Shown here piece after piece: positions 52,301 through 59,231 of a DNA stretch of 64,000 nt. Source of the stretch: Simplicispira metamorpha (GTDB taxonomy: Bacteria > Pseudomonadota > Gammaproteobacteria > Burkholderiales > Burkholderiaceae_C); contig NZ_SLXH01000005.1 of the NCBI RefSeq assembly GCF_004341365.1, positions 1 to 64,000 on the forward strand, read 5' to 3'. Within the stretch, counting starts at the first letter, position 1. The number at the start of each line of letters is the position of its first letter. Position numbers and translations under genes: made by a program. Below the pieces are notes generated by a model. It was not told the origin of the DNA, did not search any database, and saw only the letters and a list, made by a program, of their open reading frames with translations.

Positions 52301-52906
52301 CATTTGCAATCTCACAGCTTGGCTGAGCTGTTGCCCGAGTTGACCGCCCAAGGCGGCGCCATCGACGCACAAGCCCGCATTGCACCGCGCGACAAACTGC
52401 AACCCAAAGCCCTGTGGGTGGACTTGGAGCACGCCCGTATGAGCGACACCATGTTGCCGCGCGAAGCCAGCAGCCGCTTCTTTACCCCGGTGGCGCGCGA
52501 TGCCACCTTGCATTGGTCGGCACCTGGCAGCGTGTGGCTTACCGGCTTATTACCGCAGTACCAGCGGTTCCGCTACGACCCGCAGCCCCGCGTAGATGTA
52601 GCTTTGCTGCCCGACGAGGATGCAGAGACACTGATCCTGCACCGCGTGGACGACGGCGCTGGCCCGCGTGAAAAGCTGTTTGTACCCATCCAGAGTCTGG
52701 TCACCCCTGTACCCGATTCTGAAGTGCGCGGCGAGCGCATCACTGCCTGGATGCAACTGGACTTGATACAAGCCCTACAGCAATGGGCAGAGCACCATGA
52801 CCAGCCACTGCGCCGAAGTGCTGAAAAGGTCGCCACCGCCAGCCTGCCTGATCAGCAAGAAGGCTGGCGTTGGCATCCTGTCCTGGGGTTTACGGGCAAA
52901 AACTGA
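49337..52906 (+). CDS. cas3: Cas2-Cas3 fusion (type I-F nuclease-helicase)
   Basis: An 1189-residue protein fusing Cas2 to Cas3. The Cas2-like part (about 1-90) starts MNILLICECDKRALKETRRI. The HD nuclease has LAALLHDLGKATQAFQDRL (about residue 120). The SF2 helicase has Walker A ASTGCGKTLGNARI at about 481-494, Walker B VLDEPDDFDMADLP at about 636, SATLPPA (motif III) and a motif VI-like IQLAGRVRRHRAGA near 920. It unwinds and degrades target DNA recruited by Csy Cascade and supports adaptation with Cas1. Length is normal for I-F. A reverse-strand higBA pair follows, separating it from csy1. Confidence 0.97.
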   Translation: MNILLICECDKRALKETRRILDQFAERRGERTWQTPITQNGLDTLRRLLRKTARKNTAVACHWIRGLDHSELLWVVGDARRFNAQGAVPTHTTQRNVLRAQDENDWHHLPAISALTALAALLHDLGKATQAFQDRLHNPAARERNHYRHEWVSVRLFQAFVGTDDDAGWLQRLATASDADVDAAAFEALWLDKSTHLFCDGLSDAGFSDKQKAERNPFKVLPPLAQAVAWLVLTHHRLPCKPVKNEATASDEAPEGGGFAWRRFGAKPKFLNRIHLDGLLEQVNADWNEPRESPSPTNLSAYWAFPHGLPVGNPAWRKQAARFARKLQALPPGTFGALWPADPFVAHVARLCLMLADHHYSSLGLQKPEQTSSPLRDQPVPERTAYLQPHAKLHANTTSNAAGKKVCNQTLDEHLLGVQAHASVIARALPSLVRSLPALPHHKSLTKRTSNVRFQWQNKATDLAASVRQHAAQQGAFIVNMASTGCGKTLGNARIMNALADPQLGLRCAFAMGLRTLTLQTGRSFQRDLGLSDDQLAIKVGGAASRELFAYYEAQAEATGSASTQELLDEGGQVLFEGNDQHPLLMRLTSDAQTRSLLAAPLLVCTIDHLTPATESLRGGRQIAPMLRLMTGDLVLDEPDDFDMADLPALTRLVHWAGLLGSRVLLSSATLPPALVEGLYRAYRDGRTHYQRHRSERPDEPLKLCCLWVDEFAQTHADCASANDFRTAHAEFVRRRCAALAKAEVRRRAELVPLPSDWQGLDKATRRESFAYFVLQHAWRLHQDTQNHSIDPATGKHVSFGLIRMANIDPLFDVALAMFRLGAPAANVRIHLCVYHSQFPLLTRSGIEHELDSVLHRRIDKSAANGDKDPALQRPAVRALLALYPEQHHLFVVLGSPVTEVGRDHDYDWAVVEPSSMRSLIQLAGRVRRHRAGAVERTNMAVLDSNLRSLEQKNTEDAVYCKPGFEMKRVQSPKGLQPTDLRDSATHFHLQSHSLAELLPELTAQGGAIDAQARIAPRDKLQPKALWVDLEHARMSDTMLPREASSRFFTPVARDATLHWSAPGSVWLTGLLPQYQRFRYDPQPRVDVALLPDEDAETLILHRVDDGAGPREKLFVPIQSLVTPVPDSEVRGERITAWMQLDLIQALQQWAEHHDQPLRRSAEKVATASLPDQQEGWRWHPVLGFTGKN

Positions 52907-52911
52907 AGGGG

Positions 52912-53223
52912 CTACGCCGACAGAAAGCGCAATGGATAAACCGCTTCTACGTCAGACTGCAATGCCGCATTGAGCTCTGCGGTGCGCAGATCGTAAGCAG
53001 TTTGCAGATTCAGCCAAGACTGTGCATCGCCGCCAAACGCGCGGCTCAGTCGCAGTGCGGTATCGGCGGTGACTCCCCGCCGCTCCAACACGATATCGTT
53101 GATGCGCGAAGCGGGCACGTGCAAATGCTTTGCCAACGCATTCGCGCTCAAATTCATGGGCTTGAGAAAGTCTTCCCGCAAAATTTCTCCGGGATGCACC
53201 GGGCGCATGCCATTCTTGATCAT
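52912..53223 (-). CDS. higA: HigA-family antitoxin (XRE)
   Basis: A 103-residue helix-turn-helix antitoxin. Starts MIKNGMRPVHPGEILREDFL, the HigA signature HPGEIL, followed by the HTH SANALAKHLHVPASRINDIV and TADTALRLSRAFGGDAQSWL. It neutralises HigB and represses the higBA promoter. ATG 53223 has AGGAG 7 bases upstream. It is second in the operon after higB (48 bp gap) and ends 5 bp after the end of cas2/3, so it is tightly packed into the CRISPR-Cas operon on the opposite strand. Confidence 0.92.
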   Translation of the reverse strand: MIKNGMRPVHPGEILREDFLKPMNLSANALAKHLHVPASRINDIVLERRGVTADTALRLSRAFGGDAQSWLNLQTAYDLRTAELNAALQSDVEAVYPLRFLSA

Positions 53224-53271
53224 GTTCAAACTCCTGCCCCTGTTCCCCCGAGGCGCGGGATTTTGGCTGCC

Positions 53272-53553
53272 TCAGTGGTAATCCACTATTTCCACATCAG
53301 TCGCCCCTTTGTCTGTCCAGACAAAGCAGATGCGCCACTGGTCGTTGATGCGGATGCTGTGCTGGCCTTGGCGATCCCCCACCAGCATTTCCAGCCGGTT
53401 GCCCGGCGGGCTACGCAAGAAATCCAGCGTCGTCGCGGCTTCCAGCTGAGCCAGCTTGCGTTCAGCCACATTCTGGATGTTGGCAAATTGGCGGGTTTTT
53501 CCGCTGGTGAACAGACGCTGTGTTTCCTGGCATTTAAAGGAAGTGATCGCCAT
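53272..53553 (-). CDS. higB: HigB-family toxin (RelE-like mRNA interferase)
   Basis: A 93-residue RelE-superfamily toxin. Markers: FKCQETQRLFTSGKTRQFAN, the LDFLRSPPGNRLEMLVGDRQ strand, and the active strand GQHSIRINDQWRICFVWTDK with the conserved arginines. HigB cleaves ribosome-bound mRNA. Toxin-first order with higA is normal for this family. Upstream on the same strand are a HigA-type palindrome and a crRNA-like element, so a toxin gene sits between cas2/3 and the csy genes under possible Cascade influence. Confidence 0.92.
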   Translation of the reverse strand: MAITSFKCQETQRLFTSGKTRQFANIQNVAERKLAQLEAATTLDFLRSPPGNRLEMLVGDRQGQHSIRINDQWRICFVWTDKGATDVEIVDYH

Positions 53554-53562
53554 ACAAGTTAA

Positions 53563-53588
53563 TTTATACCGCTTACCGATATTCGGTA
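53563..53588 (-). promoter_or_regulatory. higBA promoter with palindromic operator
   Basis: TACCGATATTCGGTA (53574-53588) is a perfect palindrome around TAT, and an extra half-site TACCG lies at 53567-53571. A TATAAA -10 (reverse strand, 53568-53563) follows, 9 bases before the higB start. It fits HigA autorepression. The palindrome overlaps the tail of the second degenerate repeat. Confidence 0.6.
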
Positions 53589-53667
53589 TGTCTGCCTATG
53601 CGGCAGTAAACAGAAATTTCACCCATGAGGTGACTTTTCTAAGCTGCCTTTTCGGCAGGGGTCGAAC
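53584..53667 (-). ncRNA. crRNA-like element: degenerate repeat, 24-nt spacer, degenerate repeat
   Basis: Reverse-strand order. First, a repeat-like segment (53667-53636) with stem CTGCC-GAAAA-GGCAG and the handle CTTAGAAA, equivalent to the I-F 5' handle. Then a 24-nt spacer (53635-53612) starting AGTCACCTCATGGGTG. Then a second repeat (53611-53584) whose first 20 bases GTTTACTGCCGCATAGGCAG differ from the array repeat in one base, while its last 8 bases have decayed. It could be processed by Cas6f into a crRNA-like guide. Its spacer matches a CC-flanked site 60 bp upstream (53720-53695). Confidence 0.8.
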
Positions 53668-53694
53668 CTTACACCAGGAAATAGCGCAAAAAAA

Positions 53695-53720
53695 TCATTT
53701 TATAACAATGAGTTGACTGG
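53695..53720 (-). promoter_or_regulatory. Protospacer-like target of the crRNA-like RNA, with CC PAM
   Basis: Reverse strand: CC (53720-53719) followed by AGTCAACTCATTGTTATAAA. Against the 24-nt spacer, positions 1-5 and 7-11 match; 6 and 12 are mismatched, the places where Cascade guides flip a base. About 15 of 24 match overall. The site covers the csy -35 TTGACT and the reverse-strand extended -10 TGTTATAAA (53707-53699). Confidence 0.72.
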
Positions 53721-53742
53721 AAAAAATTTTGACTGCAAGATG
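53713..53742 (+). promoter_or_regulatory. Probable promoter of the csy operon
   Basis: TTGACT (53713-53718), 17-18 bp, then TG-C-AAGATG (53734-53742) as an extended -10. Transcription would start about 80 nt before the csy1 start codon. The -35 lies inside the protospacer-like site of the crRNA-like RNA. Confidence 0.5.
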
Positions 53743-53828
53743 AAACTACAGTTGAAAAGTCAGCCAAATGGGGCAAAAAAGCTATCTACCGGTTTCAAGA
53801 TGTGTTCAGTTTTAACAGGGAGGATGAG

Positions 53829-55187
53829 TTGGAAAACAAAGAAGAATCCACTGAGCGAAGCCAGCGCATACGACAGACCATGCAGGCCCATGTAGCCAGC
53901 CGACTTGCCAAGGCATTGGCCAAGTGGGATGGCAAGAACGACGCCATGGCACGCCAGGCCATTGTTGCTGCACATGAAAAATACCAACTTGCCGCTATTT
54001 TGGAGAAAGGGCGCAAGGCCAATGGCATGACCATTGCCACCCACACGACTAAAGGCATCCATCCTGATCTCAAAATCAAGCACACCACCAACCTTGCGGT
54101 TTGCTTTGAGGAGCTTCCGACGCTTGATGAACTTGGTTCACACGTTCTGAATTCACAAGAAAGCCTTGCGGATGCAACGGGGGACGGCGCCTACAACGCC
54201 TCCGCTTATGAGCTTTACCTTTTGTTGGACTGCAAGGTGGAAGGCGCGACATTGGGAGCGCTCTTGCAGTCGAGTGACGCTGATGCGGTGAGTGCTCTTG
54301 GCCACGAGCCTGTAGAAGCAGAGCAAGTGGCGGAAGAAATCGTTTTTTTACTGGAAAACAAGTGCGTCAAGCCAGCGACACATGCACTCGGAAAGCAAAT
54401 TTACTGGCTTTCAGGAACCAACCCCTCCAGCGATAAAGACTATTGTTTATTGGCCCCGTTGTATCCGGCATCGCTGGTGCATCAAGCCTATTTACAGATT
54501 CACCCCACCAGATATGGACTGAAAAATCTGGCTGCACGCAAGGCAAGGCGTGACGGCAATGTCCATGAGTGTGCTTATGAAGAATACCCAGACTGGGCAC
54601 TCCAAAAAATGGGCGGTACCAAACCACAGAACGTGTCACACCTCAACAGTGAGCGCAGGGGTGACAACTATTTGCTGTCATCACTGCCACCGCCTGCGTG
54701 GAAAACTAATCAGCGCTACTTGCCGCTGCACGCCAACTCGGTGTTTGAGCGCGCGTTTGGCACACGGCGCACAGTGCGCGGCGCAGTCAAAACTTTCTTG
54801 GCATTTTTGCTGACCGACCCGGAACCTAATCGCCCCACTCGCCAGAAGGTGGATAACTTTCTGGACAGCTTGATAGACGAGTTGATCGTTTATGCCGGTG
54901 AATTGCAATCACAACCTGCCGGCTGGACGCTGGATAAACGCTACGAAAATTTGGCACTGCCAGAAAAGCTCTGGCTGGATCCTCAGCGGGCAGCAATGTC
55001 GGATGAAGGGGAATTTGCACAGCACTGGCTTCGCCAAGAATGGCCGACGCAAGTGGGCAAACGATTTGCACATTGGCTCAACGCCCAACTACAGGGCAAG
55101 CTCCCCGTAGGGGATGCCGAAGCGCGCGAATGGCAACGGGTGCTGTTGTCCGATGAATCGTTCATGGTTACCGGAGGCGCCGCATGA
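53829..55187 (+). CDS. csy1: Csy1 (Cas8f), type I-F Cascade large subunit
   Basis: A 452-residue Csy1, which reads the PAM and holds the crRNA 5' handle in the Csy complex. Family markers: RIRQTMQAHVASRLAKALAK at the start, THTTKGIHPDLKIKHTTNLA, the KQIYWLSGTNPSSDKDYCLL segment and TVRGAVKTFLAFLLTD later on. No ATG fits: TTG 53829 has a strong GGGAGGA 5 bases upstream and is preferred to GTG 53802. This gene is more AT-rich than csy2-cas6f. Its stop overlaps the csy2 start (ATGA). Confidence 0.93.
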   Translation: MENKEESTERSQRIRQTMQAHVASRLAKALAKWDGKNDAMARQAIVAAHEKYQLAAILEKGRKANGMTIATHTTKGIHPDLKIKHTTNLAVCFEELPTLDELGSHVLNSQESLADATGDGAYNASAYELYLLLDCKVEGATLGALLQSSDADAVSALGHEPVEAEQVAEEIVFLLENKCVKPATHALGKQIYWLSGTNPSSDKDYCLLAPLYPASLVHQAYLQIHPTRYGLKNLAARKARRDGNVHECAYEEYPDWALQKMGGTKPQNVSHLNSERRGDNYLLSSLPPPAWKTNQRYLPLHANSVFERAFGTRRTVRGAVKTFLAFLLTDPEPNRPTRQKVDNFLDSLIDELIVYAGELQSQPAGWTLDKRYENLALPEKLWLDPQRAAMSDEGEFAQHWLRQEWPTQVGKRFAHWLNAQLQGKLPVGDAEAREWQRVLLSDESFMVTGGAA

Positions 55188-58059: not shown

Positions 58060-59231
58060 GTTCACTGCCGCATAGGCAGCTCAGAAAAAGCACCGTTCCC
58101 TTATCAGTTCGCGCTCAAAGTTCACTGCCGCATAGGCAGCTCAGAAAATCTCGGCAGCGGCGCCTTGCGTGACGCCAAACGTTCACTGCCGCATAGGCAG
58201 CTCAGAAACGGATGGAAACGAGGCCAGAATGATCCCGCAAGGTTCACTGCCGCATAGGCAGCTCAGAAAACCAACCAGCCTTACATCCAGCCCGGAATTA
58301 AGTTCACTGCCGCATAGGCAGCTCAGAAAAATAAGCACTGACCCGACGTGGTACGAGTGCAGTTCACTGCCGCATAGGCAGCTCAGAAATTCACTTCATT
58401 GTCTGCGTCACGCTGCTGGCCGTTCACTGCCGCATAGGCAGCTCAGAAAATCGACGCGCAGCATGCGATCTACGAGACCGTGTTCACTGCCGCATAGGCA
58501 GCTCAGAAATTAGATGAAAAATAGACGTGGCGGCCACCCTTCGTTCACTGCCGCATAGGCAGCGCAGAAACTGGATGGCAGCCAGCGCCGTGGCCTTGAA
58601 TTGTTCACTGCCGCATAGGCAGCTCAGAAAGAAAAGCTGGAAGCCGAACTGCCAGATGGCCCGTTCACTGCCGCATAGGCAGCTCAGAAATGCTTGGCAA
58701 GGCAAAGGCCGTGCATGATGCCGTTCACTGCCGCATAGGCAGCTCAGAAATGACGTGTACCCAGTCGGCTTTACCGCTGCGAGTTCACTGCCGCATAGGC
58801 AGCTCAGAAAATTCGCCCGTGGAATCCCCCACCAGCGCCACAGGTTCACTGCCACATAGGCAGCTCAGAAAACGCCAGAAAGCGCCCCGGCCAGCCCCAG
58901 CGCGTTCACTGCCGCATAGGCAGCTCAGAAATGCGAGGCCATCGTGCAGGCCTTGGACACACAGTTCACTGCCGCATAGGCAGCTCAGAAAAGTTGACGA
59001 CAGGCCCGCAGGGGATTGCCCGAGTTCACTGCCGCATAGGCAGCTCAGAAAAATACACATGGGTTGTTCGGTTTGAAACCGAGGTTCACTGCCGCATAGG
59101 CAGCTCAAAAAACAAAACGGGCATGGGCGCACTGGCATGAAAAGTTCACTGCCGCATAGGCAGCTCAGAAAGAACTGGTACGACGCATTGGCGTGGCCCG
59201 CCAGTTCACTGCACCACAGGTAGCCCCAACC
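58060..59231 (+). CRISPR. Type I-F CRISPR array, 20 repeats and 19 spacers
   Basis: The 28-bp repeat starts GTTCACTGCCGCATAGG and ends CAGCTCAGAAA; its stem is CTGCC/GGCAG and its 3' end is the I-F handle CTCAGAAA, so it is read on the forward strand with the leader at 57934-58059. Spacers are 32 nt (15 of them) or 33 nt (4). Variants: repeat 9 (58543) has CGCAGAAA; repeat 14 (58844) has CCACATAGG; repeat 18 (59084) ends CTCAAAAA; repeat 20 (59204-59231) is badly decayed in its second half, marking the old end. Spacer targets cannot be identified by eye. Confidence 0.99.

Follow-up and report, generated by a model that had tools for sequence, protein, structure and literature searches.

A degenerate mini-array in the type I-F CRISPR-Cas locus of Simplicispira metamorpha probably guides Cascade to the promoter of its own csy operon

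The window, the whole 64-kb stretch of DNA analysed here, carries a type I-F locus that is complete by Pfam (cas1, cas2-3, csy1, csy2, csy3, and csy4). The cas3 gene ends at 52906, and the gap between it and csy1 is occupied by a toxin-antitoxin pair, a short CRISPR-like element, and the upstream region of the csy operon. The genes and landmarks are as follows:

52907-53828, no strand assigned: whole cas3-csy1 cassette, which holds higA, higB, the mini-array, its target, and the csy promoter and is missing from the closest relative, L010
52912-53229, minus strand: higA, HTH antitoxin gene (Pfam HTH_3, 7.5e-06), named by gene order and annotated relatives
53272-53553, minus strand: higB, RelE-like toxin gene (Pfam HigB-like_toxin, 1.6e-16)
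53568-53563, minus strand: TATAAA near the palindrome, seen by eye
53574-53588, minus strand: palindrome TACCGA-ATA-TCGGTA a short way past repeat 2 of the mini-array, probable HigA operator judging from a by-eye comparison of higBA loci
53829-55187, plus strand: csy1 (cas8f), which opens the csy operon (Pfam Cas_Csy1, 4.4e-99)
58060-59171, plus strand: canonical I-F CRISPR array of the locus, whose repeat GTTCACTGCCGCATAGGCAGCTCAGAAA serves as reference

The likely start of csy1 is a TTG preceded by a GGGAGG ribosome site. Judged by Pfam domains, the toxin-antitoxin genes form a HigBA pair, a RelE-like HigB followed by an HTH HigA, and higB lies directly downstream of the mini-array in the same orientation. 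Three further I-F arrays occur outside the window, on contigs C10 (about 805-1422), C15 (54455-55011), and C29 (3574-5093) of G000; their repeats differ in the loop, and on one side all three are flanked by the same DNA, probably a leader.

The mini-array has two repeats and spans 53663-53592 on the minus strand, between csy1 and higB:

53636-53663, minus strand: repeat 1, degenerate, GACCCCTGCCGAAAAGGCAGCTTAGAAA (Rfam CRISPR-DR4, 24.8 bits, below the gathering threshold of 35)
53643-53636, minus strand: 8-nt handle of repeat 1, CTTAGAAA
53612-53635, minus strand: guide (spacer) of 24 nt, AGTCACCTCATGGGTGAAATTTCT, with the seed at positions 1-11
53592-53611, minus strand: repeat 2, GTTTACTGCCGCATAGGCAG (Rfam CRISPR-DR4, 21.8 bits, below the gathering threshold of 35)

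It is not a canonical array, since its repeats are degenerate and its spacer has 24 nt instead of about 32 nt; like the genes of Cas-regulating RNAs (CreR), it is a mini-array of degenerate cognate repeats adjoining cas genes. A preliminary description of this DNA had reported a degenerate repeat with a proper I-F handle, and we find the CTGCC/GGCAG stem of repeat 1 intact and its handle changed at one position relative to the array repeat. Altogether, 6 of its 28 positions differ: the 5' end accounts for three of them, the loop for two, and the handle for one (C>T). The 24-nt spacer and the second repeat with a single difference over 20 bases, also described there, are seen at 53635-53592. 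Up to the point where Cas6f is expected to cut, repeat 2 agrees with the array repeat at 19 of 20 positions; it lacks the 3' handle part, and the DNA beyond 53592 is unrelated. Because Cas6f cleaves at the base of the repeat stem (PMC10651486, in the part available), the parts lost from both repeats would be dispensable for a processed I-F crRNA.

The guide has one partner, which lies upstream of csy1:

53695-53718, minus strand: target (protospacer), AGTCAACTCATTGTTATAAAATGA, matched by seed positions 1-5 and 7-11 at 10 of 10
53719-53720, minus strand: CC PAM of the target
53713-53718, plus strand: likely csy -35 box TTGACT (5/6), in phase with seed positions 1-6
53736-53741, plus strand: csy -10 box CAAGAT, weak (3/6), at a 17-bp spacing from the -35 box

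Guide and target match at positions 1-5, 7-11, 13, 15, 18, 19, and 22 (15/24) and mismatch at 6, 12, 14, 16, 17, 20, 21, 23, and 24. The earlier claim of a seed match at 10 of 11 positions, with mismatches at 6 and 12 and a CC PAM, is exact, and the 60 bp given for the distance run from the first base of the spacer to the closer end of the target. Sites with the full 10/10 seed, searched on both strands of the window with any PAM, are the spacer itself and the target only. The PAM and seed together (CCAGTCANCTCAT) occur once in the 3,778,861-base genome, at the csy target, and we estimate the chance of finding a PAM and ten fixed bases within a promoter of about 100 bp, on both strands, at 1e-5 to 1e-4. 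The statement that the target covers the csy -35 box holds for the box itself: TTGACT scores 5/6, and seed positions 1-6 are its reverse complement. It is weaker for the promoter as a whole, because the matching -10 box reaches only 3/6 and a strict scan calls no sigma-70 promoter at the target. The arrangement is nonetheless that of CreR, a PAM-flanked partial guide match at a cas promoter, with a weak promoter call in the window itself.

The csy1 loci in which we compared this arrangement came from four sources: the same family (matches in 44 of 399 genomes; 30 loci and 13 regions taken), the same order (20 of 399 genomes matched), the same class (32 of 369), and a named genome set (best 80 of 570). 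After removal of one copy (L051, of L009), two C-terminal pieces (L053 and L057), and 18 duplicates, the final set contains 152 distinct csy1 loci; a few weak or split csy1 matches were also left outside it. The csy1 gene appears as two adjacent matches, and may be broken, in G379:C2, G529:C5, G680:C71, G969:C1, and G1103:C1. A target had to be flanked by CC, lie on the same strand, match at least 9 of the 10 seed positions, and fall between the mini-array and the start of the csy1 match (at most 60 nt inside it); for loci offering two candidate mini-arrays, we retained whichever had the better target.

A minus-strand mini-array lies upstream of csy1 in 69 of the 152 loci, and 64 of these 69 have a CC-flanked cognate target matching at 9/10 or better (10/10 in 41 of the 69). 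Cultured relatives with a mini-array include Comamonas denitrificans MM2021_4 (L115), Giesbergeria anulus ATCC 35958 (L121), and Acidovorax benzenivorans D2M1 (L112). The 64 guide-target pairs represent 45 distinct seeds, counted as distinct when they differ at more than 2 of 11 positions. The five loci without such a target by script are L035 (7), L042 (8), L075 (8), L114 (none), and L124; in the last, the script was in the wrong register and a CC-flanked, seed-bearing site is visible by eye. The script identified no mini-array in the other 83 loci, the closest relative among them, and it misses some decayed mini-arrays (e.g., L098). Matches of this quality are rare in controls: 9/10 was reached by 0.047% of non-cognate spacer-interval pairs (n = 4236, similar seeds left out) and by 0.24% of shuffled seeds (n = 13800), and 10/10 never in either. 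Two loci, L022 and L178, have one guide and two CC-flanked targets about 20 bp apart, as if Cascade sites had been doubled, and the upstream region of L033 holds a second handle and a 31-nt spacer before the targeted one, possibly a two-spacer mini-array.

The 64 pairs show a regular pattern of identity. It is 0.98-1.00 at positions 1-5, 0.16 at 6, 0.89-0.97 at 7-11, 0.23 at 12, 0.77-0.92 at 13-17, 0.13 at 18, and 0.24 at 24; position 6 and positions 12 onwards had no role in the selection of sites. The Cas7 backbone of Cascade flips every sixth base, and the dips at 6, 12, 18, and 24 match the flipped positions. The tolerance at 6 and 12 that the preliminary description had assumed is thus borne out by the relatives. 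Among the 45 distinct loci, the target base is A at position 6 in 32 and at position 12 in 29, against a background of 0.29. The bias at position 6 is at least partly driven by the promoter, because T opens both hexamers; we know of no promoter explanation for the bias at position 12. The A-richness at the two flipped positions may reflect a base preference of Csy Cascade beyond the promoter sequence. The identity rhythm fits the mutational map of the Acinetobacter I-F CreA, in which positions 2-5, 7-9, and 13-17 mattered and 10, 12, 19, and 20 did not (PMC10097628, available portion). In that RNA, according to the same portion of PMC10097628, mutating any of positions 13-17 abolished repression. 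The window pairs at only 2 of these 5 positions, a level of two or fewer found in just 8 of the 64 loci (two of which have guides too short for all five), and since this third block pairs below average, repression in the window may be milder than in most relatives. Taken together, the 64 natural pairs record the partial pairing required by Csy Cascade, in which three blocks of five bases count and each sixth base does not.

One check proposed by the preliminary description was whether related I-F loci show co-variation of repeat, seed, and target. They do, both in the 64 of 69 cognate targets and in the way the partners change. Among 41 pairs with similar guides, 164 seed-side sites have changed: at 103 of them, spacer and target changed together and still match, at 16 only the spacer changed, at 30 only the target, and at 15 both changed without matching. 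The pairs share ancestry and the sites were chosen for matching, which makes this a supportive rather than a calibrated test; it is also our own, outside the published definition of CreR. The window thus holds a mini-array of clear anatomy with a unique match, and its guide and target belong to pairs that co-evolve across 64 loci.

The position of the target bears on which gene is controlled. A hexamer resembling a -10 or -35 box coincides in phase with seed positions 1-6 in 64% of the 64 loci (mean over 71 offsets 12.8%, next best 39%) and in 56% of the 45 distinct loci (mean 13.1%, next best 36%). We inspected the distance from the PAM to the csy1 start in 17 loci, the window and 16 others picked for a short distance, with starts guessed from the ribosome-site pattern. 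Fourteen relatives are compact, with 18-46 nt (ribosome site included) from the PAM to the likely start of csy1; in the window this distance is 110 nt, and in L043 and L161 no start was found by the ribosome-site pattern. These 14 relatives leave no room for a creT gene, which points to csy as the regulated operon there. The distance from the end of cas3 to the csy1 match (not to the true start codon) exceeds 150 bp in all 58 measurable mini-array loci versus 41 of 70 loci without a mini-array.

From these comparisons of sequence, we consider it very likely that the mini-array is a type I-F CreR-like gene and that Cascade represses its own csy operon through the encoded RNA. This is the reading that the preliminary description proposed, and the 64 of 69 cognate targets, the 103 of 164 co-changes, and the 14 compact relatives all favour it. 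A minus-strand transcript would carry both degenerate repeats, and cutting by Cas6f (Csy4) after each stem would release a crRNA-like RNA of about 52 nt, consisting of the handle CTTAGAAA, the 24-nt guide, and the hairpin of repeat 2. Cascade (Csy1-4) loaded with this RNA would bind the CC-flanked target by two five-base seed blocks, skipping positions 6 and 12. Distal pairing would be too little for cleavage by Cas3, so that Cascade would stay as a roadblock on the csy promoter and lower its own synthesis. The target may also overlap the CreR promoter, in which case CreR could limit itself. By analogy with published CreR, crRNAs or anti-CRISPRs occupying Cascade would derepress csy. If csy is controlled by its own complex in this way, I-F immunity would limit itself and would increase rapidly once anti-CRISPRs or new crRNAs occupy Cascade.

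Where transcription of the mini-array might begin is suggested by two candidates in the window:

53699-53707, minus strand: candidate extended -10 of the CreR promoter, inside the target, TGTTATAAA (5/6; -35 poor, 2/6)
53668-53676, minus strand: second candidate extended -10, outside the target, TGGTGTAAG (4/6; ends 4 nt before repeat 1; -35 poor)

Twelve of the 45 distinct loci (e.g., L080, L071, and L050) have a -10-like hexamer that stops 0-5 nt short of repeat 1, compared with a mean of 5.5% and at most 11% in stretches of the same width elsewhere (45 loci). At a distance of exactly 2 nt, it is present in 13% of the 45 loci, the mean over distances being 1.1%. A -10 just before repeat 1 would place the RNA start inside this repeat, which may free its 5' arm to decay. 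We had considered a CreR promoter inside the target as a general rule, and these 12 loci undo it. In 9 of the 64 loci (e.g., L012, L014, L015, and L037) the target overlaps repeat 1, at its 5' end as judged by eye, and therefore Cascade would block CreR there as well as the csy promoter. Self-repression of CreR is thus not general, and in the window it is possible.

The HigBA pair has its own distribution. We searched for HigB and HigA within 1.5 or 3 kb upstream of csy1 in the 152 loci and found relatives of HigB in 11 and of HigA in 15, every one of them between cas3 and csy1. HigB is on the strand of the mini-array in 11 of 11 loci, and the mini-array lies upstream of it in 10; in L134, higBA is present while repeat 2 and the target are damaged. 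HigB is 78-87% identical to that of the window in 9 of 10 relatives (61% over 56 residues in L043), and the same relatives are 37-49% identical in csy1 and 41-66% in cas3 over the parts covered, which suggests either a separate spread of HigB or a stronger constraint on it. HigA occurs without HigB in the cas3-csy1 gap of L107, L109 (no mini-array), L121 (partial), and L144; the toxin was probably lost there. In the closest relative, L010 (csy1 69% and cas3 79% identical over the aligned parts), cas3 runs into csy1 without a gap, so that about 920 bp of the window, with the promoter, target, guide, and higBA, are missing, and gain and loss are indistinguishable. When the gap was used as query, 36 plasmid records matched, and the gap with csy1 matched three phage records; none covers 80% of the query, and the annotated features under the listed matches are mostly toxin-antitoxin genes. 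We also considered a phage-borne guide and rejected it: the one handle-and-seed match on a viral contig lies inside a coding frame, has no repeat stem, and is probably a chance match.

The gap might accordingly be read as a portable, self-contained control cassette made of the csy promoter, a Cascade site, its guide, and HigBA. It would cut csy off from cas1-cas3 transcription and put it under Cascade, and its single Cascade site would also gate the transcript running from CreR into higBA, tying the pair to Cascade activity. We regard this as rather unlikely. A narrower version, akin to CrePA, would have CreR-loaded Cascade hold down transcription into higBA as a guard, so that loss or inhibition of Cascade derepresses the pair. 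The confinement of all 11 HigB genes to the cas3-csy1 gap on the mini-array strand, with a mini-array upstream in 10, speaks for such a guard, as does the overlap of the target with one candidate CreR promoter whose transcript would enter higBA. Yet the second candidate lies outside the target, as do the counterparts in 12 of 45 loci, and these -10 candidates led us to lower slightly our estimates for both the cassette and the guard. Nor is there a direct target: the best CC-flanked site near higB matches the seed at 6/10 in nine loci, and 8/10 is the most that any PAM allows. By eye, a -10-like box and a palindrome belong to higBA itself, and derepression would raise the antitoxin along with the toxin. 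Finally, 59 of the 69 mini-array loci have no HigB in the searched span, and CreR is therefore independent of higBA. We consider the guard unlikely.

Less probable still is a CreTA module, in which the guide would repress a small toxic RNA, creT, between the target and csy1, and loss of Cascade would kill the cell. A precedent exists in the I-F mini-array of Acinetobacter sp. WCHA45, which lies in the same gap, has a CC target, and guards a 33-bp mini-ORF toxin (PMC10097628, as far as available), and the PAM of the window lies 110 nt from the likely csy1 start. By eye, however, these 110 nt contain no short ORF with a ribosome site, and the 18-46 nt of the 14 compact relatives leave no space for a second gene. 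A creT may exist in loci with long gaps.

Autorepression through CreR also has to be set against the idea that the mini-array is the remnant of a decayed array, without present function. Two degenerate repeats, a short spacer, and weak pairing at 13-17 are what decay would leave; but the decay has spared the parts needed by Cas6f and Cascade, the full seed with its PAM occurs once in the genome, and relatives have co-evolving pairs. We hold a functionless remnant to be very improbable, if marginally less so in view of the -10 candidates next to repeat 1.

Folding gives a real caution for the CreR reading, because the lowest-energy structure of the 84-nt stretch is a rod formed by pairing between the two repeats (-31.2 kcal/mol), compared with -16.8 kcal/mol for separate repeat hairpins and -23.3 kcal/mol when a spacer hairpin is added. 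Binding by Cas6f may overcome the rod. Folding is stronger in mini-array guides than in array spacers (mean z -0.91, n = 45, versus -0.23; one-sided Mann-Whitney p 7e-4), the controls being 60 array spacers of the window genome, each cut to length twice and hence not fully independent. Guides of the higBA group fold best (mean z -2.1, n = 9); in each of the nine that were folded (53635-53612 in the window) the seed is part of the hairpin, and seven of them beat shuffles at p<=0.05. The mini-array region as a whole folds better than shuffles (z -4.0), and the spacer hairpin with the T-rich DNA after it has a terminator-like score. Reading the inverted repeats as a terminator or attenuator before higBA, and not as a guide, would suit these values, but it leaves the identity of repeat 2, the handle, and the PAM-flanked seed target unexplained and is extremely unlikely except as a possible added role.

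Cas-regulating RNAs were reportedly described by Liu et al. in Cell Host Microbe in 2023, and Shmakov et al. (NAR, 2023) are said to have found I-F1 mini-arrays partly complementary to promoters of cas8 or to toxin-antitoxin cargo and to have tested one by experiment; the loci of that study likely overlap with our data set. Autorepression by CreR is known and I-F mini-arrays have reportedly been published, and the locus in the window is a further member. Our search, mainly of freely available literature on CreR, CreTA, HigBA, and mini-arrays at cas8, found no paper on the cassette. In their available parts, three reviews describe CreR (PMC12737573, PMC13131331, and PMC12948488), and the first two also describe CrePA. 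Autorepression is given there for types I-B, I-E, and V-A (PMC13131331) or for type I and V-A (PMC12737573). As far as these parts go, published CreR and the window have in common a degenerate mini-CRISPR near cas genes with limited complementarity to a cas promoter, and autorepression, which in the window is predicted; they differ in that the window is of type I-F and has a higBA pair in the same gap.

The solitary-repeat RNA anti-CRISPRs (Racr) resemble the window in having an I-F repeat-like RNA bound by Cas6f, a binding predicted in the window, and, unlike it, are encoded by phages or plasmids, have a single repeat and no guide, and inhibit the effector (PMC10651486, in the part available). 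A lone I-F repeat at G000:C15:59871 (L182, about 6072), with an intact stem and the handle CTCATGAT, is a Racr candidate; it lies behind a gene that looks RelE-type by eye and before a phage-like gene. The Acinetobacter I-F CreTA shares with the window the cas3-csy1 gap, two degenerate repeats, the CC PAM, and the mismatch at position 6, and its repression needs the Csy complex and not Cas3 (PMC10097628, available text). The two differ in what is controlled: as described in that text, CreTA regulates a small RNA toxin, whereas the guide of the window targets the csy1 promoter.
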